Positions 8,485-26,216 of a stretch of 47,602 bases of DNA are shown here, piece after piece. The notes below the pieces were generated by a model, which was given only the letters and a program-made list of their open reading frames with translations, had not been told where the DNA came from and did not search any database. This DNA comes from a virus: IMG/VR virus record IMGVR_UViG_3300048999_000038, positions 1-47,602 of that record; one strand, 5' to 3'. The first letter of the stretch is position 1, and each line of letters starts with the position of its first letter. Made by a program: the position numbers and the translations under genes.

Positions 8485-8756
8485 GACAGCCACGGAAACA
8501 TCGGGCCGTGCTCGGCGGCGATCTCCACCTCGAACATCAGCCAGGCGGCCTTGATGTAGGTGGGGTCGAGGTCGTCTCGGTACCACCAGGGCTTGATTCG
8601 CCAGTTCCACGGCATCAACCGGATGTTCAGATCCACGTTCGGCCACAGTGCGACCGACTCACGGATCCGGGTCGCTAAGGAAGGCGTGGGCCCGAGGTCC
8701 GGCAGGATCAGATTCACGACGTTCTCGTCTCGGTTCGACAGTTCGGGGTCGGTCAT
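8481..8756 (-). CDS. hypothetical protein (91 aa)
   Basis: Unrecognised Trp-rich soluble protein (LWPNVDLNIRLMPWNWRIKP, YIKAAWLMFEVEIAAEHG). The ATG at 8756 overlaps the stop of the MazG-like gene. Its context between a nucleotide-hydrolase gene and a membrane protein gives no clear function. Confidence 0.72.
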   Translation of the reverse strand: MTDPELSNRDENVVNLILPDLGPTPSLATRIRESVALWPNVDLNIRLMPWNWRIKPWWYRDDLDPTYIKAAWLMFEVEIAAEHGPMFPWLS

Positions 8757-9304
8757 CAGTACGCCTTCCCGTGTTTGATGGGCCTCGTCCGGTTGTATTC
8801 CATCTTGCGGCAGTACTCTGCCCGCAGATCGACGCCTGTGCGCTGCGCTGTGTCGAGTAGCCGGATGAGCACGTCAGCCATCTCCGATCCAACGCCCTCA
8901 GGTTTCGGGAGGGCGCCCCTGCTGCATGTGCATGGGGGGGCTGCGCCGCCCCTCACGAACACCTTCCAGGTGATGACTTCGCAATCTCTGGCGTGACCAC
9001 CCGTCCCGGTGCAGTCCTCCAGACCCCATGCCCGATGGGCCTCCAACATCTCAGAGACCTCGGAATGTAGGAGGGCTACGTCGGCGGCGAACGGCCGATC
9101 CTCCTCGAACCAGCCGTGTGCAACGTTGTTCTCGTAAACCTCCTGCTGCCAGTCCTCGATCGTCGGCACGCGCTCGCCAGTGATCGGGGCGGCCTTCGCG
9201 TTCTCCGCCGAGTCGACCGGCGGGGCGCAGTCGTAGTGGGCGTCCATTGCCACGAGTGGGCGCAGGTTCGGGTGGTGGTTCATTGCGTCGATGGCGTAGC
9301 ACAT
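8756..9304 (-). CDS. MazG-like nucleotide pyrophosphohydrolase (182 aa)
   Basis: Residues about 45-180 look like an all-alpha NTP pyrophosphohydrolase: RPFAADVALLHSEVSEMLEA supplies the E-x-x-E of helix 1, and VGSEMADVLIRLLDTAQRTG supplies the E-x-x-D of the metal site. An insert between them (CTGTGGHARDCEVITW, PPCTCSRG) adds Cys residues not usual for the family. Phage MazG homologues hydrolyse dNTPs or alarmones and are thought to tune host nucleotide pools. It starts at an ATG overlapping the upstream stop. Confidence 0.82.
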   Translation of the reverse strand: MCYAIDAMNHHPNLRPLVAMDAHYDCAPPVDSAENAKAAPITGERVPTIEDWQQEVYENNVAHGWFEEDRPFAADVALLHSEVSEMLEAHRAWGLEDCTGTGGHARDCEVITWKVFVRGGAAPPCTCSRGALPKPEGVGSEMADVLIRLLDTAQRTGVDLRAEYCRKMEYNRTRPIKHGKAY

Positions 9305-11687: not shown

Positions 11688-12050
11688 TCAGGCCTCCGTC
11701 GCGACGCGGAGACGACGGCCGGGCTTCAGGTCGCGCGCCGGGTTGACGTAGGTGTGGTTGATCGATGCCGGAGTGGCGCGGTGACTCGCGTGGGCGCGGC
11801 GCATGGCCCGATTCGGGCCCTCGTGGATCGCGAGCGCCTCCTGGTCCCGCAGCTTCGCCTGGGCGGAGATCTGTCGCATGTCGACCGTGACGCCGGACCC
11901 GTGGGGCTGCGGGGTGAGAAGTGCGGCCTTCTTCTTCAGGGCGCGCCGCTCGAACGCGGCGGCCCGTGCGTCGCTGAACCATGCGCGCATGGAGTTGGCT
12001 CGCTCGATCTTCTCGTTGGTCACCTCGCGGCGACTGCGGACCTCATTCAT
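11688..12050 (-). CDS. hypothetical basic helical protein (120 aa)
   Basis: The start overlaps the end of recT by 8 bases. The sequence is strongly basic (AAAFERRALKKKAALLTP, GPNRAMRRAHASHRATPA) with a C-terminal DLKPGRRLRVATEA. It is probably a nucleic-acid-associated helper of the recombination module, judged from charge and position. No family is recognised. Confidence 0.7.
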   Translation of the reverse strand: MNEVRSRREVTNEKIERANSMRAWFSDARAAAFERRALKKKAALLTPQPHGSGVTVDMRQISAQAKLRDQEALAIHEGPNRAMRRAHASHRATPASINHTYVNPARDLKPGRRLRVATEA

Positions 12051-12942
12051 TCACGTTCTCCTGCCCGGCCCCAGCTTCGTTGGGGACCTGCTCGTAGTGG
12101 TAGGTGACGGTGTCGTCGCCCAGGTCGGCCTGCGGATTGAGGTCGACGCGGACACCTTCGTCGGCCATCAGCGCCGTGTGCAGCTCGGTTGACCTAGGCA
12201 ACCAGTTGGCCATCCGCCGGAAGACGGTCTTCTTGGCCATGGCGTCGAAGTCGTCGCGCCAGGGACCGGTGAAGACAGGGTGCCCGTCCTCGCCGATCTT
12301 GTCGCCGGTGCGGCGCCCGTTCTCCCAGACACCCTCGCGGGCCATCGCGAAACGGTCCCGGTGCTCGATCACGTCGGCGTGAGTCATGAACTCGAAGCCA
12401 GGCCGGCCGCCCTTGATGTGCGCCACAACGTAGTACGCGACGGCCTTACCGCGCGGGCCGTCCCTATAGGGGGCGTGCACGATGCGGTCCTCGGTGCCGT
12501 ACTCGACTGACCAGGTGTCCTTTTCCTGGACGACGCGGGCGGACAGGCCGGCGATCATGTCGGACCGGAACGCCAGCTCCGCCAAGCCCTTGTAGCCGAG
12601 AATCACCTGCGCCTGCTGGCTGCGACTCTTCTTGTCGTAGAACGGGATGAGCCAGCCGTGCCCGATCGCGGAGACGCCAGGGCGTAACCCGAGCTGGGCG
12701 AACGTCATCAGTCCGCCCATGATGGATTCAGGGCTGCATTCCAGGAGCTTCGGGGTCTGCCGGATCGACGTCATCGCGTCGCGGACGAGCTGGGTGGCCT
12801 CCAGGCCCTTCGGCATGGCCAGCTTGAACTGTGACTCCATCGACCGGATCAGGCTGTTCATGGGCTTGAAGTCGAGTTCCTTGCCCTGAGCATCGGCCTT
12901 GTCGACGGTCTTCCCGTGGGCCGCGTCGCGGAGCCCGCTCAT
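12043..12942 (-). CDS. recT: RecT-family single-strand annealing protein (299 aa)
   Basis: It matches the RecT/Redbeta-like recombinase family: CSPESIMGGLMTFAQLGLRP, GHGWLIPFYDKKSR, QVILGYKGLAELAFRSDMI and AMAKKTVFRRMANWLPRS are the conserved blocks in family order. The protein anneals complementary single strands after the partner exonuclease has resected ends. The ATG at 12942 overlaps the upstream stop (ATGA). Nuclease, a 118-residue protein and RecT form one coupled operon. The length is normal for the family. Confidence 0.93.
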   Translation of the reverse strand: MSGLRDAAHGKTVDKADAQGKELDFKPMNSLIRSMESQFKLAMPKGLEATQLVRDAMTSIRQTPKLLECSPESIMGGLMTFAQLGLRPGVSAIGHGWLIPFYDKKSRSQQAQVILGYKGLAELAFRSDMIAGLSARVVQEKDTWSVEYGTEDRIVHAPYRDGPRGKAVAYYVVAHIKGGRPGFEFMTHADVIEHRDRFAMAREGVWENGRRTGDKIGEDGHPVFTGPWRDDFDAMAKKTVFRRMANWLPRSTELHTALMADEGVRVDLNPQADLGDDTVTYHYEQVPNEAGAGQENVNE

Positions 12943-13295
12943 CGCAGCTCACCGGCGGACAGATCTTCGCCGCCGTGCCCCATCTCGCCGCCGTCGTTCG
13001 TGGACCGCAGCCCGCTGGTCGGCGTGACGTTGATGCTGGGCGGGTCGTCGATCGCGGTCTGGCCCGGGATCTCCGCCTCGACCTCGCCCGGCTCGACCTC
13101 GCCCGCGCTGTCCAGGCTGAGGTGCAGGACGATCTCGTCCTTCTGCGGGAGGTACTGGATGAAGGGCGCCTTCCGGATGAGGCTCTTGGCGACGGATGCG
13201 GCTACCGCCGGGTCAAGGTGCTCCTCAAGGAGTTCGGGGAGGAACGAACTGGCCATCCGGAGAGCGGCCTTCGTCGTGGTGCGCTGAGTGGTCAT
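12939..13295 (-). CDS. hypothetical protein between exonuclease and RecT (118 aa)
   Basis: The start at 13295 overlaps the exonuclease stop (ATGA). The N-terminal 70 residues form a helical domain (MTTQRTTTKAALRMASSFLP, AASVAKSLIRKAPFIQYLPQ), and the rest is acidic and Gly/Pro-rich. Its fixed place between the two recombination enzymes suggests an accessory to them, for example an inhibitor of host nuclease or a single-strand-binding helper. No direct sequence match supports either. Confidence 0.72.
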   Translation of the reverse strand: MTTQRTTTKAALRMASSFLPELLEEHLDPAVAASVAKSLIRKAPFIQYLPQKDEIVLHLSLDSAGEVEPGEVEAEIPGQTAIDDPPSINVTPTSGLRSTNDGGEMGHGGEDLSAGELR

Positions 13296-14341
13296 TCTGT
13301 GGTTGCTCTTTTCTTCAGTCGGAACGTCGGGTTGTTGGCTTTGAGGGTGATGAATTTCTCCCGCAGCAGGGAGGCGTACGTGTTGGGATACTTCGCTTGC
13401 AGGGCCCGGAGGTTGTCCGCCGTGACCTCGTAGGTCTTGTCCGGCGACTTCCTGTACGTGAAGACGGGTACGCCATCGAGCAAGCCGACCTCGCCATCCC
13501 CGAGCAACTGGACGAGGCCCGTCTTGGCCTCCACCTTCTCTTCCGCTGCCGCCTTCTCCCGCAGGTGAGCCGCGCCGTACGACGCCAGGAAGCCTTCGGC
13601 TTCTTCGGGTGGTAATTCGCGGTCTCCCTCCCGGTCGCGGAACATGTCCAGAAGCTCTTGGAGTAGCACTCCGTCGGAGTCCGGGTGGACCGTCGGCGGG
13701 ACGCCCTGCTCTACGCACTCCCAGATCGGCCGGGCCGCTTCGATCAGGTACTGGGCCAGTTTCGGATCGTGGTCGACACGGAACTGTACGAGCTTCTGAC
13801 CGCCGATCAGGACCGCGACGTGCATGTGGTCGAATCCGGTCACCGACAAGCCCCACTGGACCTGCGCCAACACGTCATCGGGGACCTCGTCACCGCCGAA
13901 CTCGGCGGCCTTGTAGGCGTTGCGCGTCTTGATCTCCAGGCCGCACATGCCGCCTGGGACGTTCGCTGGATCCAGTCCCTTCAGTGGATCGTCAGGGCAG
14001 GTCCGCACGATCCGGTCCAGACTGGCCAGCATCCAGCGCTGGCCCGTGTTGCCGAGGACACCTACACGGCCCACCTTCGTGCCCCGCATCTTCGCCCACT
14101 CCTGCGCCACGGGATCTTCCAGGATGTTGCCCCACTTCGCGGCCTCGCGAGCCTGGTCATCCGGGGCCTCTCCGCGCTTGTCACGCCATACCCCGAGTGC
14201 CGTGCCGTACTGGCTGCGACCGAGGAGCTTCGCGAGGTCCGTGCCAGTAATGCCACGGCGGCGCGTCGCGAACCAGGTGGGAGTGCCGGGCAGGGCGTTC
14301 GTGGCGAGCCAGCCCGTGGGGGTGATCATTCGCTCTGGCAT
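13292..14341 (-). CDS. YqaJ / lambda-exonuclease-type recombination nuclease (349 aa)
   Basis: The start ATG at 14341 (MPERMITPTGW) has GAGGAGAAC upstream. It shows the PD-(D/E)XK nuclease core of YqaJ-like viral recombinases: ITGTDLAKLLGRSQYGTALG, WGNILEDPVAQEWA (Glu), LASLDRIV (Asp) and GLEIKTRNA (E-x-K). It should digest double-stranded ends 5' to 3' to give single strands for RecT. The C-terminal part has a helical extension (LREKAAAEEKVEAKTGLVQL) and a DNA-contact-like tail. A CCACGAC element lies further upstream than usual (14375-14381). Confidence 0.92.
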   Translation of the reverse strand: MPERMITPTGWLATNALPGTPTWFATRRRGITGTDLAKLLGRSQYGTALGVWRDKRGEAPDDQAREAAKWGNILEDPVAQEWAKMRGTKVGRVGVLGNTGQRWMLASLDRIVRTCPDDPLKGLDPANVPGGMCGLEIKTRNAYKAAEFGGDEVPDDVLAQVQWGLSVTGFDHMHVAVLIGGQKLVQFRVDHDPKLAQYLIEAARPIWECVEQGVPPTVHPDSDGVLLQELLDMFRDREGDRELPPEEAEGFLASYGAAHLREKAAAEEKVEAKTGLVQLLGDGEVGLLDGVPVFTYRKSPDKTYEVTADNLRALQAKYPNTYASLLREKFITLKANNPTFRLKKRATTE

Positions 14342-14403
14342 AGACTGTTCTCCTCGGGTGGTCCCGGTCCTGTCGTCGTGGTCAGTGCCGGGACTGCTCT
14401 GAG

Positions 14404-14610
14404 TCACCGGTCGGACTCGGTGGGCAGATCCAGCGCGAAGTTCCGCACCTGCTCCGCCTCCAGCCGGAAGTTCCGGGCCTCCTTGGTGAGGTACCGCTTC
14501 GTGAGCCGCCCAGCGCCGGCCAGTTCGTACACGACTCGCTCGGACATGGACAGCATCCGGGCCGCTTCGCTGACGGTGACGAGCACCGGTTCTACGCGGG
14601 CGTCCTCCAT
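14404..14610 (-). CDS. excisionase-like HTH protein (68 aa)
   Basis: The start ATG at 14610 has a strong SD (GGAGG). The sequence VLVTVSEAARMLSMSERVVY, then ELAGAGRLTKRYLTKEARNF, is the MerR-like winged-helix of small phage excisionases and regulators. It lies immediately downstream of the integrase gene in the same direction, which fits a role in directing excision. Expression in the integrated state would depend on the same leftward transcript. The gap upstream carries a 21-bp element that recurs in inverted orientation at 19480-19500. Confidence 0.82.
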   Translation of the reverse strand: MEDARVEPVLVTVSEAARMLSMSERVVYELAGAGRLTKRYLTKEARNFRLEAEQVRNFALDLPTESDR

Positions 14611-14630
14611 TCGCTTCCTCCAATTCGGTT

Positions 14631-14651
14631 GCACTGCTCTGCACTGGTGTA
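14631..14651. repeat. 21-bp element, copy 1 (int-xis gap); candidate att or regulatory site
   Basis: A 21-base sequence beginning GCACTGCTCTG on the plus strand lies between the integrase stop (14656) and the excisionase start (14610). A copy with 20 of 21 bases identical is at 19480-19500 on the other strand. It includes a direct CACTG-CTCTG-CACTG pattern. Its place next to the integrase makes it a candidate for an attP core or arm site; the second copy upstream of another gene argues for a regulator-binding site instead. Confidence 0.5.
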
Positions 14652-14655
14652 CAAG

Positions 14656-15939
14656 CTACATGCTGCCGGTGGTTAGCGCCAGAGACTCGCCGAGCCTGAC
14701 CATCGCGGCCCGCTGCATGGACAGGTCAACGTGCTGGTAGGCGTCTACCACAGCCGAGTGACCGAGGATCGCCAGCCGTACATCCTCCGGCACGCCGAGC
14801 GCCAGCAACAAGGTGGCCGTAGTGTGCCGGGCAGAGTGCTGGTCCGTGTCCTCGACGCCAGCGGCCGACAGGATCCGATGCCATGACTTGCGGTCTTCTC
14901 CACCGTCGATCGGATCACCGGTCGGCGTAGTCCACACCAGCCGAGCCTCGGAGGCGGGAGTCGGGGCGGCCCAGTGCTCACGCAAGCTCAGTAGGAGCGG
15001 CTCAGGCAACGCGATGAGCCGGCTGGACCCCTTCGTCTTCGGCTTCACCAGGCACAGGTTCCCCTTCAACTGGCGGTACTCGAACCCGGGCAGCGTCGCG
15101 ACCTCACGCTCTGGGCAGCGAAGCGGGCCGACATGCGGCGCACAGTCGCGCCCGCCGCACCCGTGCTTCCAGGGGATCCGCTGGAGCTGCCAGGCCACGT
15201 CAACCGTGCCCGCGTCGAGGTCGAGCCGATCCCAGGTGAGCCCGAGACACTCGCCCTGCCGCATCCCGAGCAGGAAAGCGGTGTGCCAGCGGGACGCGAG
15301 CCGGTCGCCCTCGATCACCGCGAACACGCGGCGTACCTCCTCGATCGACAAGGCGCGGCGACCGTTCGGCGCGTTGCGTGGCTTCGGCACCAGCTCGACC
15401 GGGTTGCGCAGCGCCCACCCATCCCGCATCGCGTCATTCATCGCCGTCCCGAGGATCCGGTGAGCATGCCCGGCAGTGGTGGTCGACAGGCCCTGGTCGA
15501 GGATGTACCGGTGAAGCTGCCGGACGTGCTGTGCGGCGAGTTCGTCGACCTTGACGCGACCTAGGACCGGCGCCAGATAGTTGCGGCAGTACGACCGATA
15601 GTTCGCGAGCGTGCCCGGTTTCATCTTCGGTTTACGCGGGCAGATCTCATCCAACCAGTAGTCGAGCCACGCATTCAGCCGTCTGCTCGCCGTGTTCCGG
15701 TTGCCCTCAGCAACCGCCGCCTGTGCCGTCTTCAATCTCGCCCGGCACTCCGGCATCGTCTTCCCGTACACCGTTTTGCTAGCGCGCTTCCCGTTGACCC
15801 AGCCGAGGTCGACGCGTCCAACCCACCGACCCCGGCAGGAATGCTCCGGCCGCTGGCCGTCCTCGTCGGCGGGCGGGCACGACTTGTGGTCATGCCGCTG
15901 GAACAGGCCGCCGTCACCGCGCTGCCTCCGCTTGGCCAT
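14656..15939 (-). CDS. int: tyrosine-family phage integrase (427 aa)
   Basis: Site-specific recombinase for prophage integration. Residues 1-90 are an arm-binding domain, 91-190 a core-binding SAM-like domain (LNAWLDYWLDEICPRKPKMK), and 195-420 the catalytic domain. Catalytic residues can be read: R227 (GMRQGE), H368 and R371 (QHSARHTTA), H394 (LGHS) and Y401 (AYQHVD), with K301 or K303 in the beta-hairpin. A Cys cluster (C261, C266, C275) inserted in the catalytic domain is typical of actinobacterial members. The start overlaps the upstream stop (TGATG). It is transcribed with, not against, the early genes. Confidence 0.95.
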   Translation of the reverse strand: MAKRRQRGDGGLFQRHDHKSCPPADEDGQRPEHSCRGRWVGRVDLGWVNGKRASKTVYGKTMPECRARLKTAQAAVAEGNRNTASRRLNAWLDYWLDEICPRKPKMKPGTLANYRSYCRNYLAPVLGRVKVDELAAQHVRQLHRYILDQGLSTTTAGHAHRILGTAMNDAMRDGWALRNPVELVPKPRNAPNGRRALSIEEVRRVFAVIEGDRLASRWHTAFLLGMRQGECLGLTWDRLDLDAGTVDVAWQLQRIPWKHGCGGRDCAPHVGPLRCPEREVATLPGFEYRQLKGNLCLVKPKTKGSSRLIALPEPLLLSLREHWAAPTPASEARLVWTTPTGDPIDGGEDRKSWHRILSAAGVEDTDQHSARHTTATLLLALGVPEDVRLAILGHSAVVDAYQHVDLSMQRAAMVRLGESLALTTGSM

Positions 15940-18998: not shown

Positions 18999-19255
18999 CG
19001 CGCGCTCCTCAGATTGAGGCGCTTGCGGGCGTGGTACGCGCCAGCCAGGCCCCGCCCGGCGGCGTCGCGGGTGGCGAAGGTGACGGCGGTGCCGTAGCGC
19101 TCGCCGTCGGCGTCGAAGGCGTACCAGTCGCCGGAGCGGTTGGCGTGCCGGCCCTGCCGCACGGTGCCGATGATGACCGGGTGGGTGTTGCCGTCTAGGC
19201 GCACCTCGTACGTCCCGGGGGTCGACGTCGCGACGTAGTGCAGGAGCGTGGTCAT
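18995..19255 (-). CDS. hypothetical protein (86 aa)
   Basis: The ATG at 19255 overlaps the previous stop (TGATG). It looks like a small beta-barrel with a terminal helix: YEVRLDGNTHPVIIGTVRQG, SGDWYAFDADGERYG, AGRGLAGAYHARKRLN. Proteins of this style are common in actinomycete phages but lack a named role. Confidence 0.68.
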   Translation of the reverse strand: MTTLLHYVATSTPGTYEVRLDGNTHPVIIGTVRQGRHANRSGDWYAFDADGERYGTAVTFATRDAAGRGLAGAYHARKRLNLRSAR

Positions 19256-19437
19256 CAGGAACGCCTCTCGCGGAGACGGTACTGGCGGCGGGTCTCCTGG
19301 TGGAGTTCGGCGCGGTCCATGAACGCCTGTCCCTCCGACGAGGCGGCCCACCGGTCCAGGCGCACCTGTGTCTGCCTGCCGGTCGTGGTCGCGCCGTCCG
19401 GCCAGACGTACACGGCGTCTTTTAGATTCAGCTCCAT
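19255..19437 (-). CDS. hypothetical protein (60 aa)
   Basis: The ATG at 19437 is preceded by GGAGGA and a CCACGAC leader element (19451-19457). The sequence opens MELNLKDAVYVWPDGATTTG and ends in a basic helix (QETRRQYRLRERRS). It is the first gene of a coupled run. No family is recognised. Confidence 0.66.
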   Translation of the reverse strand: MELNLKDAVYVWPDGATTTGRQTQVRLDRWAASSEGQAFMDRAELHQETRRQYRLRERRS

Positions 19438-19523
19438 CAGGTGGTCCTCCGTCGTGGTTGTGTACTCTAACCGGCACCCTACACCAGTACAGAGCAGTGC
19501 GGAACAGTACTACCGATCAATGC
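19438..19523 (-). promoter_or_regulatory. intergenic control region with 21-bp element, copy 2
   Basis: This 86-base gap holds, at 19480-19500, the inverted second copy of the 21-base element found between int and xis (20 of 21 bases match), and a CCACGAC leader box before the SD of the next gene. A TAGAGT on the minus strand (around 19466) could be a -10 box, but the matching -35 is weak. I read it as a regulator-bound promoter region with moderate doubt. Confidence 0.45.
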
Positions 19524-19769
19524 TCAGGCGGGGTCGTTTTCACGGTTCTCATAGGGCTTTACGAACACCGGGTGCTGGCCGTCCACGGTCAGTCCGATCT
19601 CCTTCCAGCCGGCCCAGTCAGCGGGCTCCTCAGAGGGCTCTACAGGGTCGTACGCGACGAACACCGACTCACCCGAGTTGAAGGCATCGCGGTACTCCTC
19701 GAAGGTCACTTCCCGCAGTGGCCCGACCGTGCCAACGCGGACGAAGTATGTCTCCCCAGTCTTACTCAT
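19524..19769 (-). CDS. hypothetical protein (81 aa)
   Basis: ATG 19769 has a strong SD (GGAGGGG). The sequence (MSKTGETYFVRVGTVGPLRE, EEYRDAFNSGESVFVAYDPV) suggests a small alpha/beta domain. It has its own upstream regulatory region with a 21-base dyad at 19791-19811, so it may be independently controlled, as expected for a regulator or defence-related gene. Function is unknown. Confidence 0.72.
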   Translation of the reverse strand: MSKTGETYFVRVGTVGPLREVTFEEYRDAFNSGESVFVAYDPVEPSEEPADWAGWKEIGLTVDGQHPVFVKPYENRENDPA

Positions 19770-19790
19770 GTACCCCTCCAAAAGGTCTAC

Positions 19791-19817
19791 TCACGGTTTA
19801 CCAAACCGTGAATACTA
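19791..19817 (-). promoter_or_regulatory. operator dyad next to a -10 box
   Basis: A perfect 9-bp-arm dyad TCACGGTTT (19791-19799), a 3-base centre and AAACCGTGA (19803-19811) lie directly downstream of a minus-strand TAGTAT -10 box (19817-19812). The transcription start would fall within the dyad, which is well placed for repression. The -35 is weak (GTCACA at 16 bases spacing). It controls the 81-residue gene. Confidence 0.58.
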
Positions 19818-19904
19818 GCTACTCGGTATCGGGTGTGACCTGCGAAGACGCCGGTACGTCGGTGCTGTTTGACACCCCACTTTGTACCCGTGCACACGCC
19901 GTGA

Positions 19905-20675
19905 TCAGGTGAGCCTACTCAGTAACTGATCCCGCCACTGTAGAGCGAATACTGAACAGTTCGCCTCGCTCTGAGCTGGTGGGCGGCCTGGGCGAGGATG
20001 CGCGCACGGCATGACGTGGTACCCACGGGCCGACCAGGCGAGCGAGTCGGAGGACCGGAGGTGTTCGGCGTAGCGCTCTAGGCCGCCCTTCTTCACCCCG
20101 AACCCGTGCAGGCTGATTCCGTACTCTTCGTGGATCGTGCGGGCGATCATCTGAATCTCTAAGCTGTCCTCGCGCCGGCACACCGACCCGAGACCAACCA
20201 CCGGCTCCGCAGCGAGGTCGACACCGCGCTCTGTGTACATCTCAACGCACCTCCGGTAGTCATTCAACGCCTTGCCCTGGATCACGTAAATGAACGGCAG
20301 GTCGGCTGCCCGCATCCGCAAGTCGATGCCGTTGTCGATCGTCAACTCTTGGTGCCTGACCACAGAGAGGCCCGTGGCCTTGATCGCCTCGTCCTCGCAC
20401 ATCCAGTCCATTGGGGCGGCCCAGTCCATGTTGCCGATCTCGTCGCGCGCCCGGCGCACCTGCTCTACGTACAGCGCTGGGCTGATCGTCCAGCCGCCAC
20501 GGTGAGCGACCTCCCAGAACCCACCCGAGTCCATCGCCCACCGACCGCGTGCGCGAGGGAAGGTCTTGATCGCCGCCTTCCCCGTGCGGTACAGCCGGGG
20601 TCGGGCCACGAACAACGGGACGTCCATCCGACTCAGCCAGTGCGGCATGTGCGTGCCTAGGTAGAACTCGGTCAC
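19905..20675 (-). CDS. dpdA: DpdA-like 7-deazaguanine DNA transglycosylase (256 aa)
   Basis: Homologue of tRNA-guanine transglycosylase of the phage DpdA kind, which exchanges guanine in DNA for a 7-deazaguanine. Landmarks in TGT order: D49 in AMDSGGFWE (TGT TDSGGF), D90 in AAPMDWMCED, Q133 in YVIQGKA (substrate Gln), G161-G163 in VVGLGSVCRR (TGT GGLAVGE), and D210 in SSDSLAWSARG, the likely nucleophile region. Residues 224-240 have Cys but not the standard TGT zinc motif. At 256 residues it is shorter than tRNA enzymes, as known for phage forms. GTG 20675 overlaps the transporter stop (GTGA), so the pair is co-translated. Confidence 0.85.
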   Translation of the reverse strand: MTEFYLGTHMPHWLSRMDVPLFVARPRLYRTGKAAIKTFPRARGRWAMDSGGFWEVAHRGGWTISPALYVEQVRRARDEIGNMDWAAPMDWMCEDEAIKATGLSVVRHQELTIDNGIDLRMRAADLPFIYVIQGKALNDYRRCVEMYTERGVDLAAEPVVGLGSVCRREDSLEIQMIARTIHEEYGISLHGFGVKKGGLERYAEHLRSSDSLAWSARGYHVMPCAHPRPGRPPAQSEANCSVFALQWRDQLLSRLT

Positions 20676-21211
20676 GTCAGCGCTGGCCGGCGAGCCTGAC
20701 GGAGTGCGAGTACGGCACACACCACCACGGCGGTGATCGCAAGCTTGCCGATCACTTGCCCGGCGAATGCCTGCTCGGGACGAAACCCAGGGATGAATAG
20801 CCGTAGCGTCGGCGCGGCCAGCGCTAGGAAAACCACGGTGTCGATCACGGTTCCGACCATGTTGGAGACCAGGGCGGCGCGAACGTACCCGCGACGCCGA
20901 AGGGGCGTGTAGACGGCGAAGTCGGCGAACTCCGAGAGTAGGAACGCAACGGCGGAGGCGAGGGCGATACCAGCCGCACCGACCGCCAGCGACAGCGCGC
21001 CACCCGCGACGATCGCCAGTGCTACCCAGATCTTCCCGGCCGCATCCTGGAGCGCGTCCCGCAGGATGAACGCCAGCCCTGCGAAGTAGGTCCCAGCCGT
21101 GGCCGTGAGCCCGAACCCGACTGGCCACACGCCGTACCGGCTGGTGACATAGTTCGCCGCCAGAATCGTCGAGACGAACGCGGCAGCCACAGCGAGTTTT
21201 CTGAACATCAT
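20672..21211 (-). CDS. yhhQ: VUT-family (YhhQ-like) queuosine precursor transporter (179 aa)
   Basis: About six hydrophobic helices with the VUT family signature: FLLSEFADFAVYTPLRRRG and LVSNMVGTVIDTVVF (S-N-x-x-G-x-x-x-D-T-x-x-F). Family members import 7-deazaguanine precursors such as preQ0 or preQ1 across the cytoplasmic membrane. I chose ATG 21211, which overlaps the previous stop (ATGA) and has AGGAGG at correct spacing; ATG 21217 is too close to the SD. Coupling to the DpdA gene makes a supply-and-insert pair. No precursor-synthesis gene (FolE, QueC, QueD, QueE) is visible, so the phage appears to depend on salvage. Confidence 0.86.
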   Translation of the reverse strand: MMFRKLAVAAAFVSTILAANYVTSRYGVWPVGFGLTATAGTYFAGLAFILRDALQDAAGKIWVALAIVAGGALSLAVGAAGIALASAVAFLLSEFADFAVYTPLRRRGYVRAALVSNMVGTVIDTVVFLALAAPTLRLFIPGFRPEQAFAGQVIGKLAITAVVVCAVLALRQARRPALT

Positions 21212-21603
21212 TTCCATACCTCCTGGAAGTCCGGGTGATCGGCGTAGACCGATACCAGTGCGCGCATGATGGGCGAGGTCGGCGGGTCGTCACCGAACAC
21301 CTTCCGGTACTCCTGCTCCGTGGCCCACCGGATCTGCTGCGTCATTTTGAACGTCCAGGAGTCGAGGTCGGACGGGTCCGTCCGCACCAGCTCGGGCGGG
21401 CGCTCCACTAGGACCGGCCACTGTTCGTGCAGCTCGACGATCTTCCGCTTCGCCGCGATGTCAGCCAGCATCTCATCGACCAGCCGTTGCTCGAAGTGGA
21501 ACAGCGGCACGTCGTCCCCCTCGTCCTCGCGTCGCTTCTGCGCACGCCACCCAGACTCCAGCTCGTGCAGGCGAGCTAGATAGAACTCGCCGATCGCCGA
21601 CAT
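21208..21603 (-). CDS. DUF6221-like protein (131 aa)
   Basis: The pattern MSAIGEFYLARLHELE, later MLADIAAKRKIVELHEQW, and a C-terminal VSVYADHPDFQEVW matches my memory of the actinobacterial DUF6221 family (residue-initial helix, then AAKR-x-I-x-x-x-H, then ALA-x-x-Y-x-DHPD). The function of that family is unknown. ATG 21603 overlaps the previous stop (TGATG); a GTG one codon earlier is an alternative. It lies immediately before the transporter and DpdA genes, to which it is coupled. Confidence 0.82.
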   Translation of the reverse strand: MSAIGEFYLARLHELESGWRAQKRREDEGDDVPLFHFEQRLVDEMLADIAAKRKIVELHEQWPVLVERPPELVRTDPSDLDSWTFKMTQQIRWATEQEYRKVFGDDPPTSPIMRALVSVYADHPDFQEVWK

Positions 21604-22307
21604 CACTCCCACCTTCCTTCCTGCGGCCACAGGCGCCCGCCTGCGAGCCTGTAGACCCCGGCGGGCACGTCGCCCCATTCCGGCCGATGTTCGGCCTCCC
21701 AGCGGTCCAGAGCGGCGCGTAGGGCGTCACCTAGGTCCGGTGCCGTCCACACTGGCCGGAGCGGGCCCGCGTCGATCGGGTTCCACGGGGCGTAGAGGTC
21801 GCGAACGAACGGTGTCCAAGTCTGGCCGTTGTCGTCGGACAGGGCCAGGTCCAGGTCGATGATGGTCCTCGGGGCGTAGCCGGGGCGGGGCCGCTGGATC
21901 ACCCGCACCAGGGCATCCGCATACCACCAGCCGTGCTTGCGCTCCAGTTTCCTGCCCGCCACGATCAACCCGGTGTACGGGACGCCAACCTCAGCCTTGC
22001 GCCGGACCATCTCCGACGACTCGCCGTACCGATAACCAGCCTTCTCCTCGACGCGAGTAACCGGGCCGGCCCACGGGTCAGTCGGGTGCTCCACCTGCAT
22101 GGTGGAGCGGCGCTGGCCGAAGCGGACCACCACCTGTCGCAACTCGCGAACCTCAGTAGCTGGATCATTCTTGATCGTGCCCACCGTCACCCGGCGACGG
22201 AGAGACGCGGCCAGATCGCCGCGCGCCCGGCGACCGGCGTTCTTCGCCCGCCAGATCTTCACGCCGCCGTCCGCCTGGTATACAACCCCGTAGTCGGTGA
22301 GGTTCAT
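21603..22307 (-). CDS. hypothetical protein (234 aa)
   Basis: The start at 22307 overlaps the previous stop (ATGA). It is mixed alpha/beta with basic N-terminus (GVKIWRAKNAGRRARGDLAA), a central region (YTGLIVAGRKLERKHGWWYA) and a C-terminal part rich in Trp (WTPFVRDLYAPWNPIDAG, YRLAGGRLWPQEGRWE). I do not recognise a family. It is upstream in the same coupled chain as DUF6221, transporter and DpdA, so a part in that pathway cannot be excluded. Confidence 0.7.
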   Translation of the reverse strand: MNLTDYGVVYQADGGVKIWRAKNAGRRARGDLAASLRRRVTVGTIKNDPATEVRELRQVVVRFGQRRSTMQVEHPTDPWAGPVTRVEEKAGYRYGESSEMVRRKAEVGVPYTGLIVAGRKLERKHGWWYADALVRVIQRPRPGYAPRTIIDLDLALSDDNGQTWTPFVRDLYAPWNPIDAGPLRPVWTAPDLGDALRAALDRWEAEHRPEWGDVPAGVYRLAGGRLWPQEGRWE

Positions 22308-22519
22308 CGCGCCTTCTTCGGGTAGATCTTGCGGAGTGTCGCGAGCATGTCCCGCAGTGCCGTCTTCGCGGCGGCGGACAGGCTGGGTTCGGTGGACCGG
22401 GTGGCGCGCTGGGCGACCAGCACCAGATCCGTGAGGAACCGGCCCCGCGTCCGGTCGTACCGGAGGGCCAGCGCGATCAGTTCGCTCCAGTCGGCTTCGG
22501 TCCAGGCCGGCTCGGTCAT
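22304..22519 (-). CDS. hypothetical helical protein (71 aa)
   Basis: The ATG at 22519 overlaps the previous stop (ATGA). The sequence TEADWSELIALALRYDRTRG and AAAKTALRDMLATLRKIYPK is nearly all helix and basic at the end. No family is recognised. Confidence 0.68.
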   Translation of the reverse strand: MTEPAWTEADWSELIALALRYDRTRGRFLTDLVLVAQRATRSTEPSLSAAAKTALRDMLATLRKIYPKKAR

Positions 22520-22974
22520 CGGTGGTCACCCATCACGTTCGACTGGATGACAGCGGACCGTGCCGCCGCCTCCAGGGTCGCGCCGTGCTCGGTGACCGCA
22601 GCGAGCCGCATCCACGGCGTCGCGGTCTCCGCCTGCCCGTGGTGCTTGACGTGCAGGCGCATCCGCCACTGGCCCGGGCCGTGCTCGGACAGCTCAGTGC
22701 GGATCGCGGCATCCAGCACCACATCGTTCTGCACCTCGACCGCAGAGTGCTCGTCAACCTCAGCGAGCGCCTCACGGTTGTGACCGCAGCAGTAGAAGAA
22801 CATGCGGCCCAGCCAGGAGCCGGGCTCGGCGACCAGCGGGTAGGAGGGGGCGCCTCCAGCGCCCAGGATGCGCAGGTCGAGGCGGTGCGTCGCAGGCTGT
22901 CCACACGCCACGGTCACGCCGTACGGCTGGTCGATCTCGTTCCACGCGATCGTCTGGAACTGGCAGGTAGGCAT
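22516..22974 (-). CDS. hypothetical protein with Cys/His motifs (152 aa)
   Basis: The start ATG at 22974 has GGGGGAG upstream. Residues 1-70 (MPTCQFQTIAWNEIDQPYGV, VACGQPATHRLDL, FYCCGHNREALAEVD) hold C-x-x-H-type pairs that recall small actinomycete zinc-finger proteins used to recognise host targets. The rest forms amphipathic strands and helices. Function is unknown. Confidence 0.68.
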   Translation of the reverse strand: MPTCQFQTIAWNEIDQPYGVTVACGQPATHRLDLRILGAGGAPSYPLVAEPGSWLGRMFFYCCGHNREALAEVDEHSAVEVQNDVVLDAAIRTELSEHGPGQWRMRLHVKHHGQAETATPWMRLAAVTEHGATLEAAARSAVIQSNVMGDHR

Positions 22975-22975
22975 G

Positions 22976-23308
22976 TCACTCCCCCCGGCAAGCGTCGCGG
23001 GCAGCCGTGTACTGGTCGAGCTGACCCGACAAGACATTGCTCAGCGGGCCCATCTTCGCCGACGCCGTCTCGATACCCGATACGTCGAAGTTCGACGCGG
23101 CGGTGAGCACCTCCGAGACGACATCGAACCCGTCGCCCGCCGTACGGATCGACGCATCCGCCTGGTTCAGCGCGTTCAAGCACGACGTCGAGGCGTGCTG
23201 GGCGGGCTGGTTGGCCGGTTCGCTGTAGTACTGACCGGCGACCCCGAGAGCGATGCCGCCGAGGAGGCCCGCCACCACGAGTACTACCGCCTTGATGTTC
23301 CTGTTCAT
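22976..23308 (-). CDS. membrane-anchored periplasmic helical protein (110 aa)
   Basis: The N-terminus MNRNIKAVVLVVAGLLGGIA is one uncleaved membrane anchor or signal. The external domain is helical with two Cys residues (STSCLNALNQADASI, AARDACRGE) that could form a disulphide. Similar short secreted helical proteins occur in actinomycete phages. A CCACGAC box (23323-23329) precedes the SD AGGAG. A cell-surface role is likely from topology; the task is unknown. Confidence 0.75.
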   Translation of the reverse strand: MNRNIKAVVLVVAGLLGGIALGVAGQYYSEPANQPAQHASTSCLNALNQADASIRTAGDGFDVVSEVLTAASNFDVSGIETASAKMGPLSNVLSGQLDQYTAARDACRGE

Positions 23309-23309
23309 G

Positions 23310-23546
23310 TCAGTTCTCCTGTGTCGTGGTTGGTTCGGCGATAACGGCGCCGGTCCGGAGTTGCCTTACCCGTTCGCGCCGGGCGGCGCGTGCGGCCCTT
23401 TCGGTGTAGCGGACCAGGGCGTCCCGGACAACCTCCGAGAGATTCTCGTCCCTGGCATTCGCGGTGGTCTTCGCTGCCTCCCAGATCTCATCAGGGACGC
23501 GCACCGCGTGCAGGCGGTGGCCCTTGTACGGCGGCTTGGTGCTCAC
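23310..23546 (-). CDS. ribbon-helix-helix regulator (78 aa)
   Basis: The GTG at 23546 overlaps the previous stop (GTGA). The sequence LHAVRVPDEIWEAAKTTANA, then ENLSEVVRDALVRYTERAAR, is an Arc/CopG ribbon-helix-helix, with a basic C-terminal extension (RRERVRQLRTG). It is a paralogue in pattern of the protein at 5824-5982. It probably binds a dyad operator as a dimer; the nearby GTGTAGCTACAC sites are candidates. It is coupled to an HTH gene. Confidence 0.82.
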   Translation of the reverse strand: MSTKPPYKGHRLHAVRVPDEIWEAAKTTANARDENLSEVVRDALVRYTERAARAARRERVRQLRTGAVIAEPTTTQEN

Positions 23547-23926
23547 GCTTCCTCCAGGCAGCAATCGAAGTCGCCCGACGGTTCCGCGAGCGCGGCAGAG
23601 TGGTCGATCAGGACTCGGTGGTCACTGACCTGACCTCGGTCGAGGGATGCGGCGTCCAGTGCGGACACGAGGGCGCCCCAACGGCGCTGGGCCTCCTGGC
23701 GGGTCGTGCCGGTGCCGCGAGCGATCTCCGCCCAAGACCGGCCGTAGATGGTGCGCTGACCGTGGATCGCTCGCGCGATCGCCAGCTCCAGCGCATCGGC
23801 CGCTGCGATCATCTGCGCCAGCTCGGGCTCATCCGCGTGCGTCACCCGTTTCGCCCACGAACGCATCATGCGGGCCACCATCTTGCCGTAGTCGAGCGTC
23901 TCGACCGGGCCGCGTGCTCGGGACAT
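23543..23926 (-). CDS. helix-turn-helix DNA-binding protein (127 aa)
   Basis: The start ATG at 23926 has AAGGAG upstream. Residues about 55-90 (HGQRTIYGRSWAEIARGTGT, then TRQEAQRRWG) form a helix-turn-helix of the sort found in actinomycete regulators and phage proteins. The N-terminus is basic and helical. It is co-translated with a ribbon-helix-helix regulator, giving a two-regulator cassette just downstream of the repeated operators. It is a candidate immunity or early-gene regulator. Confidence 0.72.
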   Translation of the reverse strand: MSRARGPVETLDYGKMVARMMRSWAKRVTHADEPELAQMIAAADALELAIARAIHGQRTIYGRSWAEIARGTGTTRQEAQRRWGALVSALDAASLDRGQVSDHRVLIDHSAALAEPSGDFDCCLEEA

Positions 23927-24001
23927 CAGGAACTCCTTCGTTACGGTGGTAGAACTCCGGTGACCGGGGGGCGCGTTCCCCAGCCCGGTCACCGGAGGCT
24001 T

Positions 24002-24136
24002 TCAGCGGGGCTCGTGGACCTCGGTCGAGTTGTCGGGGCAGTGGTCGTAGGTGCCGCCCTCGTCACCGGAGAGGCTGTCGACCCAGAGGTCGCCTTCGAG
24101 TTCGATGGATGCTGAGCAGTGGCGGCAGGTGTTCAT
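24002..24136 (-). CDS. zinc-ribbon mini-protein (44 aa)
   Basis: Hand-translated frame. It starts MNTCRHCSASIELEGDLWVD and contains YDHCPDN later, giving CxxC and HC pairs for a zinc site. It has an SD (GAGGAG), a CCACGAC box (24151-24157) and a strong promoter at 24169-24197 with two operator copies, so it is the first gene of the transcript carrying the two regulators. Function is unknown. Confidence 0.75.
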   Translation of the reverse strand: MNTCRHCSASIELEGDLWVDSLSGDEGGTYDHCPDNSTEVHEPR

Positions 24137-24158
24137 TGTGGGCTCCTCGCGTCGTGGT

Positions 24159-24197
24159 GTGTAGCTACAAGCTAGCCGCTGTGTAGCTACACGTCAA
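24159..24197 (-). promoter_or_regulatory. promoter with paired GTGTAGCTACAC operators
   Basis: On the minus strand the -35 TTGACG (24197-24192), a 17-base spacer and the -10 TAGCTT (24174-24169) form a near-consensus promoter. A perfect dyad GTGTAGCTACAC (24181-24192) sits in the spacer, and a second with one mismatch at 24159-24170 covers the -10. Their centres are 22 bases apart, two helical turns. This suggests cooperative repression of the downstream regulator operon. Confidence 0.75.
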
Positions 24198-24233
24198 GGC
24201 TAGCGGGCAAACCCGACCCGATAGTGGTCTTCC

Positions 24234-24677
24234 TCAGCCGGATGAGGAGGCAGTACGCACCGGAAGACGGCAGTCCTGGCAGGGGTTGGCCGTCCAGGGA
24301 ATCTCGTCACCGCAGATGGCCGGCTCGGCTGGCGGGGTCTCCTCGCCAGGCAGGGCCGAAGGAGCGAGCGGCGCAGGCTCAGACAGCGCGGCATGGCAGC
24401 TCGGGCACAGATCGAAGCGGTGCACTGAGGTGTCCGTTGCGCCTTGATAGATCGGGAACCTTTCCGAGTGACGCACCCAGCCGAGCCGGCGGGCCGTTGC
24501 TCGGGTCTTCTGTGAGCTGACCTCAGTCGGCGCCACCATGGCGCACTTCGCACGCAGCGCGTCCCGCCCTGACCGATCAACCCGGATCTCGGCGTGCGTC
24601 TTTCCGGCTACCCGCTCCCGATACATCAGCAGGCTGGGGCCCTCGCAGGCCAGCGCGTACGTCTTGATGAGGGTCAT
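24234..24677 (-). CDS. hypothetical protein with Cys pairs (147 aa)
   Basis: The start ATG at 24677 has GAGGA and a CCACGAC box (24692-24698); the 27-base leader is almost identical to that of the gene at 24136. The N-terminal half is alpha/beta (TLIKTYALACEGPSLLMYRE). The later part has FDLCPSCHAALSEP and TANPCQDCRLPV, which should bind zinc. It could be a nucleic-acid-binding early protein. The family is not recognised. Confidence 0.7.
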   Translation of the reverse strand: MTLIKTYALACEGPSLLMYRERVAGKTHAEIRVDRSGRDALRAKCAMVAPTEVSSQKTRATARRLGWVRHSERFPIYQGATDTSVHRFDLCPSCHAALSEPAPLAPSALPGEETPPAEPAICGDEIPWTANPCQDCRLPVRTASSSG

Positions 24678-24756
24678 CGTGGGGTCCTCGCGTCGTGGTG
24701 TGGTGGTGGCCGGGTGGCCTTGGTCCGGCCCGTAGGCCGGGGAGACTGCGACCCGA

Positions 24757-25035: not shown

Positions 25036-25347
25036 TCAGCCGAAGGGTGCCGGGTCGGAGCGCACCAGCTCGACCGGCGTACCGTTCGGGATGTTCTTCG
25101 CGCCGTCGAACGCCTCCAGTTGCGGAGAGTCCAAGTCCGGCTTGATCGCACCCACGGCAGCATTCGGCGTAACTTGCCCCTCCGTGTACTTCGACCAGGC
25201 CACTTGGACGCCACCCAGCACCAGCAGGGCGACACCCAGCACCTTGACCGGTACGACGTCGGCGAGCGCCGCACCGCCACCGACGAAGGTCAGGCCAGCG
25301 AGAACACTGTTCATGATGAGGACGGGCCTCGGGTCGTTCGCGGTCAC
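25036..25347 (-). CDS. probable holin, two membrane helices (103 aa)
   Basis: The GTG start at 25347 overlaps the endolysin stop (GTGA). Two hydrophobic segments (VLIMNSVLAGLTFVGGGAAL and VPVKVLGVALLVLGGVQVAW) are followed by a polar C-terminal tail of about 45 residues. Small two-helix proteins directly after the endolysin are usually holins, which form the membrane holes that release or trigger the lysin. The assignment rests on topology and position, because two other small membrane genes lie upstream. Confidence 0.72.
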   Translation of the reverse strand: MTANDPRPVLIMNSVLAGLTFVGGGAALADVVPVKVLGVALLVLGGVQVAWSKYTEGQVTPNAAVGAIKPDLDSPQLEAFDGAKNIPNGTPVELVRSDPAPFG

Positions 25348-25562
25348 GGTGCGAGCTTCTTGATGAGGTCTTGGACCTGCGTCTCCAGGTTGTTGACCTC
25401 GGCGGCCAGCGCGTCGTCGCGGGCCTTGTCGGCGGCGGAGCGCTGGTCGTCCTTCGTCTGCATCCACACCGTCAGCGTGTTGCGGATGTCCTTGTACCGG
25501 GCCGCGTCGGCGGCCTCCTTCGTCTTCAGAAGCTGGATGATCGTGGCGCCTTCGCCTGCCAT
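25344..25562 (-). CDS. possible internal translation product of the endolysin (72 aa)
   Basis: Within the endolysin gene an in-frame ATG at 25562 (MAGEGATIIQLLKTKEAADA) follows GAGAGGA with 7 bases spacing, a good SD, and lies exactly at the junction between the amidase and the coiled-coil region. Some phage lysins are known to make a separate C-terminal subunit from such starts and to assemble with it. This product would be all helical. The start is seen; its use is inferred. Confidence 0.45.
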   Translation of the reverse strand: MAGEGATIIQLLKTKEAADAARYKDIRNTLTVWMQTKDDQRSAADKARDDALAAEVNNLETQVQDLIKKLAP

Positions 25563-26207
25563 GTCGTCTTCCTCTCTCGCGGGCCAGTTCCCTGGCCCAG
25601 CCTTCAGTGCGGCGTCAACGTCACGCCTGAACAGATACATCGCTACATGGCCCGGGTCGTTCTTCCGGCTGGTCCATTCCTTGTGGCCGATGACGCGGTG
25701 CGCGCCCCAGCCGTAGAAGTCGCAGACGGCGACGGCGCCGAGGACGGCGGACACCCACATCTCCGTCGACGGGGCGTGTGAGCCGTCATACCGCAGCTCG
25801 TTGCCGTACAGGTGCGTGTTGCCGTTGACGTTGTCCGGGCCCGGCTTCAACTCAACCGAGGACCAGCCGTAGTCCTTCGCCTTCATGTGGTTCAGGGTCG
25901 TCAGCGACCCCATGCCGGCGTGGTTGGCTCGCTCGTTCGCGATCAGCCAGAAGTCGCCATCACGGTCGGTCGAGAAGTTGCACAGCGGCGGCGGCACATC
26001 TCCGGGCCGGCCGACGTTGGCCAGAAAGTTCAGGTAGTCGTCGGACTGGCCTTCGCCGCCGGTGTGGTGAATCAGTACGCCCTGAGGGTCACTGATCGAG
26101 CCCGGCCCGTACCCTCTGGTCTGCCACCCCGGGTAGAGCTTCAGACGGGCGCCCAGCCACTTCCTGAGCTGGGCCTGTTCCTGCGTTGGAGTCATCGCGG
26201 TCGCCAT
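25344..26207 (-). CDS. endolysin: N-acetylmuramoyl-L-alanine amidase (287 aa)
   Basis: Cleaves the amide bond between muramic acid and the stem peptide. Residues about 20-205 are an Amidase_2/PGRP domain: VLIHHTGGEGQSDDY (H47 or H48 zinc ligand), NERANHAGMG, YGNELRYDG, and AHRVIGHKEWTSRKNDPG (H175, K176, D184). Residues 215-287 are a polar helix and coiled coil instead of a usual wall-binding domain. ATG 26207 was chosen because TAGGAG lies 7 bases upstream. No signal peptide, so release needs a holin. An internal start may yield the C-terminal part separately. Confidence 0.92.
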   Translation of the reverse strand: MATAMTPTQEQAQLRKWLGARLKLYPGWQTRGYGPGSISDPQGVLIHHTGGEGQSDDYLNFLANVGRPGDVPPPLCNFSTDRDGDFWLIANERANHAGMGSLTTLNHMKAKDYGWSSVELKPGPDNVNGNTHLYGNELRYDGSHAPSTEMWVSAVLGAVAVCDFYGWGAHRVIGHKEWTSRKNDPGHVAMYLFRRDVDAALKAGPGNWPAREEDDMAGEGATIIQLLKTKEAADAARYKDIRNTLTVWMQTKDDQRSAADKARDDALAAEVNNLETQVQDLIKKLAP

Positions 26208-26216
26208 GGGCAACTC

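Follow-up and report, generated by a model that had tools for sequence, protein, structure and literature searches.

Several described systems have parts in common with the locus studied here. DNA of the phage CAjan carries dPreQ0, for which DpdA is required, and recognition by restriction enzymes has been found altered in CAjan and in other phages with 7-deazaguanines (PMC6884629). The CAjan genome has a full synthesis operon (folE, queD, queE, queC, preQ0 transporter, dpdA). YhhQ is the preQ0 transporter of E. coli (PMC6884629, PMC5372724); it is found in about 9% of bacterial dpd islands (PMC11888242), and in EC151 the transporter occurs alongside a full synthesis pathway (PMC8310023). Zallot et al. 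2017 described COG1738 in TGT-less bacteria bearing DNA modification genes (PMC5372724). Hutinet et al. 2019 described 76 phages with DpdA only, found YhhQ in some phages without correlation with any phage group, named uptake from outside as one possibility, and asked whether the singleton DpdAs still function or have diverged (PMC6884629). The DNA of one DpdA-only mycobacteriophage, Orion, is without 7-deazaguanine, which fits an import model, as preQ0 is made by neither the phage nor its host (PMC6884629). DNA of another DpdA-only phage, MED16, contains dADG and has little protection, with many of the tested enzymes cutting it (PMC8306585).

Here we analyse a minimal arrangement in the virus contig IMGVR_UViG_3300048999_000038 (47,602 bases, recorded without a host), the whole of which we call the window. 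It has a gene for a VUT/QPTR-type membrane protein coupled to dpdA, and we consider it likely that the two genes constitute a minimal preQ0-type salvage-and-insert cassette that marks DNA. The pair bears on why many phages carry DpdA without substrate-synthesis genes, and on the open question of functional divergence among singleton DpdAs, which the coupling to an importer makes testable. The concept itself is not new: DpdA-only phages and YhhQ in phages were described in 2019, and named phages already hold the pair. That the pair recurs, as a minimal and portable module for import, appears to be new; in the literature searched, the coverage of which is incomplete, we found no description of a minimal coupled pair that recurs as a unit.

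The VUT and dpdA genes of the window

By family matches, the window belongs to a temperate tailed phage, with terminase, portal, capsid and tail tape measure present. We found no near phage relative. The terminase is about 55-57% like those of Arthrobacter and Gordonia phages, which suggests a host in the Actinomycetota; the host is probably an actinobacterium. The VUT-dpdA pair sits between the endolysin and the integrase, within a run of small overlapping minus-strand genes (Table 1).

Table 1. Coordinates of the pair and of other genes of the window.
Feature	Coordinates	Strand	Remarks
RecT	12043-12942		family match
RecE	13292-14644		family match
Integrase	14656-15939		family match
dpdA (P0001), DNA-guanine transglycosylase family PF23859	19905-20675	-	256 residues, GTG start
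GTGA overlap, VUT stop / dpdA GTG start	20672-20675	-	4 nt
VUT/QPTR-type six-helix protein (P0002), predicted 7-deazaguanine precursor importer	20672-21211	-	PF02592, phrog_4899
DUF6221-family gene (P0003)	21208-21603	-	ATGA overlap with VUT start; not a module member
234-residue protein, no notable family match (P0004)	21603-22307	-	coupled upstream; not a module member
Endolysin	25344-26213		family match

The coordinates, strands and frames of both genes agree with the original prediction, as does the translational coupling by GTGA at a junction that reads ...ACGTGACC... The VUT ATG start has a GGAGG 7 nt ahead of it. We find no sigma-70 promoter consensus around the pair region, and no Rfam RNA, preQ1 riboswitches included, at 19000-24700; terminator predictions around the pair are weak matches inside genes.

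The product of the window dpdA is a member of the DpdA family, as had been proposed. It matches PF23859 with an E-value of 2e-69 (234 bits, cut-off 27 bits), which places it inside the superfamily, and PHROG 1279 with 1.6e-67; it does not match the TGT family PF01702. Its AlphaFold model (pLDDT 95) has the TGT-type barrel fold, and the PDB entry that the model matches best is 7ui4, a DpdA crystal structure described as a DNA preQ0 insertase (Foldseek E 2.3e-7; Z 19.1, 3.6 A over 234 residues), with TGTs just below at Z 17-18. None of the TGT-like landmarks of the original prediction (D49, D90, Q133, G161 and D210) varies across a 39-sequence alignment of relatives, and their order and spacing match D92 (in SGGF), D146, Q187, G213/214 and D264 of actinobacterial TGT. 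Profile-profile comparison of the family with TGT gives nothing significant, with shallow alignments (Neff about 2), so the relation between DpdA and TGT rests on the fold and the residue spacing. A PDB sequence search with an 11-sequence profile returns chance ribosomal matches only. The canonical TGT zinc motif (C-x-C-x2-C ... H) is not evident, and the C-terminal Cys and His residues are spaced otherwise (C225-x-H227 ... C240; residues 225-240, window 19950-20010). Most DpdA relatives have H-x2-C-x2-C at the C-terminus; the clade of the window DpdA (L018-L021) has C-x-H and then E-A-N-C, hinting at a zinc site that may be rearranged or lost in this clade. The protein is predicted to insert preQ0 into DNA.

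The 179-residue membrane protein is of VUT/YhhQ type, again as proposed. It matches PF02592 (Vut_1; E 1.5e-9, 38.8 bits, cut-off 27.2) and phrog_4899 (1e-35), and its model (pLDDT 94) consists of six helices and a hairpin in an S-component-like fold, with Z scores of 8-10.8 against ECF S-components (RibU, ThiT, BioY and others) and at most 6.5 against unrelated chains. The matches to TIGR00697 "queuosine precursor transporter" (6e-10, 39.2 bits, cut-off 50.95) and to PRK11212 (24.1 bits, cut-off 252) are both under their cut-offs. The protein is thus predicted to resemble YhhQ in its working but is not filed as a YhhQ equivalog, and its putative cargo is preQ0.

Comparison with named phages and dpd islands

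The mycobacteriophages Orion, Oline and Yuna, in the third group of Hutinet et al. 2019, have the DpdA family and the catalytic residues of the window DpdA, and no synthesis genes are reported for this DpdA-only group, as in the window. Unlike in the window, no annotated transporter adjoins dpdA in the mycobacteriophage neighbourhoods examined. In all, 391 mycobacteriophage records match the window DpdA, with roughly 39-49% identity among the matches listed. CAjan, of the Seuratvirus group, has a transporter of the same family, as the window does, and a DpdA: the VUT-family profile matches its annotated preQ0 transporter with 7e-24 (an E-value within a 10-sequence set). Its DpdA is only marginally like the window-type profile (12 bits), and its transporter gene, unlike that of the window, is not adjacent to dpdA. 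The bacterial dpd islands (dpdA-K, Salmonella Montevideo) share with the window the DpdA fold and the presumed reaction; among the Pfam matches of the window ORFs, we find none of the island partners DpdB, DpdC, DndB/ParB-like or restriction families.

A similar arrangement in a named phage is that of Sinorhizobium phage phiLM21, where p025 and p026 are an adjacent, overlapping PF23859 DpdA (2.4e-43) and VUT (phrog_4899, 2e-42). The order is reversed, with dpdA before VUT, and this DpdA is 32% identical to that of the window. The same VUT family (PF02592, phrog_4899) is also found in StevieRay (Mycobacterium, gp53-gp54), Aoka (Arthrobacter, gp38-gp40) and ReqiPine5 (Rhodococcus, gp04-gp03). 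In these three phages the partner is a different protein of 206-215 residues, phrog_15826, annotated "DpdA-like" in StevieRay and Aoka, and the two of these that we compared have no detectable sequence similarity to the window DpdA. In Aoka, unlike in the window, a QueF-like gene (PF14489, 8.7e-7) lies between the VUT and phrog_15826 genes. This phrog ("unknown function"; L001:8492-9452, L002:4497-5144, L003:4001-4621) gives the VUT family a second kind of partner, unrelated in sequence to the first, and its motif W-C-A-D-N-G-C-F/Y resembles W-A-x-D-S-G-G-F.

Recurrence of the pair

A single-sequence scan of viral contigs retrieved no relatives of the window DpdA, and alignment queries did retrieve them: 214 viral loci (some contigs repeated) and 80 bacterial genomic loci. 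Clustered at 90% identity, these give 103 viral and 65 genomic clusters. A VUT gene is near dpdA in 34 of the viral and 22 of the genomic clusters, nearly always directly upstream. The pairing exceeds chance: among 160 ten-kb DpdA loci, dpdA directly follows a VUT gene in 50, and few VUT matches fall elsewhere. Of the 55 distinct junctions at which VUT and dpdA lie close, 43 are exact 4-nt overlaps (GTGA or ATGA). On the DpdA tree, the VUT label changes 11 times versus 42.6 with shuffled labels, a comparison that says nothing on direction. The window DpdA groups with L018, L019, L020, L024 and L045, which are mostly VUT-bearing, on a long branch of its own (0.69). By record counts, the window DpdA matches 399 phage and 73 plasmid records, and the VUT-dpdA pair itself is found on phages, on plasmids (an Embleya plasmid has VUT then dpdA) and at bacterial genomic loci. 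One contig titled Candidatus Melainabacteria (L105) has a VUT-dpdA pair nested among the actinobacterial group of the tree; either misbinning or a mobile element is the probable cause.

Source of the precursor

Pfam matches on 63 + 26 window ORFs include no preQ0 synthesis genes, and a six-frame search of the whole record finds no QueC. The window phage differs in this from CAjan, and the earlier claim that no preQ0 synthesis gene is visible holds in both searches. Within this DpdA subfamily, three viral clusters do have Que genes beside dpdA, without VUT: QueC (PF06508, 5e-53) and QueD (PTPS, PF01242, 1e-30) in L032, QueC (1e-58) in L058, and QueC, QueD and QueE in L079. Their presence supports a preQ0-pathway base as the probable substrate of the subfamily. 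That an importer gene is repeatedly coupled to dpdA, with QueC, QueD or QueE in its place in a few relatives, argues that the members of this singleton-type subfamily would be precursor-dependent insertases. No cluster has both VUT and Que genes, a mutual exclusion that with three Que cases is not significant (P = 0.30). In 66 of the 103 viral clusters, neither VUT nor Que genes lie within 5 kb of dpdA, so many members may use another source or be idle.

An unlikely alternative is that the pair makes no modification under natural conditions, or that DpdA now catalyses some other reaction, as Hutinet et al. 2019 considered for the singletons. The absence of 7-deazaguanine from Orion DNA (PMC6884629) would agree with it, and so would the long branch of the window DpdA and a C-terminal Cys/His pattern unlike that of most relatives. 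It fits poorly with catalytic landmarks that are without exception invariant among the relatives, and with a recurrent linkage to two independent sorts of supply, import and synthesis.

Less probable still is a DpdA that exchanges bases in tRNA, where the pair would restore a queuosine-like modification in TGT-less hosts and aid phage translation. The nearly equal fold scores of TGTs and DpdA are on its side, as is the classical role of VUT/QPTR as a queuosine-salvage transporter (PMC5372724). The best fold match is nevertheless a DNA preQ0 insertase, the protein has 256 residues and belongs to PF23859 rather than PF01702, and the pair occurs on phages, plasmids and genomic loci adjoining DNA methyltransferases; the target of DpdA would be DNA rather than RNA. 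Among the searched bacterial genomes with this DpdA subfamily, TGT (PF01702) is absent in 46 of 49, and since TGT is absent, the VUT protein of such bacteria would not feed queuosine in tRNA. A PF01702 match is present in 35 of 60 Actinomycetota sampled phylum-wide, a comparison with the DpdA genomes that is confounded by lineage.

A true QueC is equally frequent in bacterial genomes with VUT beside dpdA (13/30) and without it (8/19), and VUT has no correlation with host QueC. The least probable alternative, that DpdA uses host-made preQ0 and VUT imports another purine or a vitamin or is an auxiliary booster, would draw on those 13 genomes, on the VUT scores under the queuosine-precursor equivalog cut-offs and on the differing specificity of COG1738 members (PMC5372724, PMC11130926), but 17 of the 30 pair-bearing genomes are without a true QueC, VUT is closely and repeatedly coupled to dpdA, and transport of an unrelated vitamin leaves that linkage unexplained.

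Proposed mechanism

We return to the salvage-and-insert cassette. The VUT protein of the infected cell or lysogen would take up a 7-deazaguanine base, most likely preQ0, from outside. DpdA, whose translation begins at the GTG that overlaps the VUT stop, would remove guanine from DNA via a covalent Asp intermediate and place the imported base instead. Such an Asp-linked intermediate is established for TGT, and the homologous residues are present in the window DpdA. The modified DNA would then be cut poorly by some restriction enzymes.

The original prediction had the phage relying wholly on imported precursor. Its import-plus-insert logic is upheld by the conserved pair, by the Que genes beside the same DpdA in three viral clusters, and by VUT-DpdA in TGT-less bacteria. 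The word "wholly" is not: complete dependence on import is only possible, because a true QueC is present in some pair-bearing genomes (13/30) and the contig comes without a host. The predicted resistance to restriction is weakened as well. The altered recognition seen with CAjan stands in its favour, and the unmodified DNA of Orion and the little protection of MED16 stand against it. A role of the cassette against restriction is probable, and protection of the phage by the modification would follow from it; this is the weakest step of the mechanism.

A wider reading, which we hold only tentatively, is that the pair is a portable, supply-limited DNA marker, active only with environmental preQ0-type bases. 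The cassette would then be common to phages, plasmids and genomic elements in bacteria without a queuosine pathway, and restriction resistance would hang on a metabolite of neighbours, such as actinomycetes that produce preQ0. The reading would also account for DpdA-only phages like Orion looking unmodified in pure culture. Were it true, a counter-restriction trait would be tied to the sharing of metabolites within soil communities, and the pair would offer a two-gene means of putting 7-deazaguanines into actinobacterial DNA.

Neighbouring genes

The two genes coupled upstream of VUT, the DUF6221-like gene and that of the 234-residue protein, had been suggested as possible members of the module. 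We reject both, as they do not recur beside VUT-DpdA in other loci. Overlapping starts are general throughout the window operon (22516-23037, 22304-22519, 21603-22307 and 21208-21603 all overlap).

Other genes do accompany the pair elsewhere. A PP-loop/PAPS-reductase-like gene (phrog_424, e.g. 6e-45) is just upstream of VUT-dpdA in at least 8 genomic loci (L100:3485-4435, L115:3323-4429 and further ones); genes of the same PHROG are also at L001:6504-7538 and L005:2002-3093, and near the DpdA genes of phages Aoka and Gilgamesh. It was not found in the window, and is possibly a third partner in some lineages. Many loci (L007, L145, L112 and about 20 more) have genes like DNA C5-cytosine or N6/N4-methyltransferases no more than about 2-3 kb from VUT-dpdA. 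The C5 type is present in 26 loci, 22 of them with VUT, and L145 additionally bears a large serine-recombinase-like ORF.

Within the window, a gene of nucleotide metabolism distant from the pair (8756-9304) encodes a protein matching phage pyrophosphatase families (phrog_3301, 8e-29). Downstream of dpdA, a 135-nt gap separates it from the next gene (19524-19769). In this gap falls an inverted repeat, CACGGTTT-GGT-AAACCGTG (19792-19810), followed by a short T run, which could possibly be a terminator or an operator.
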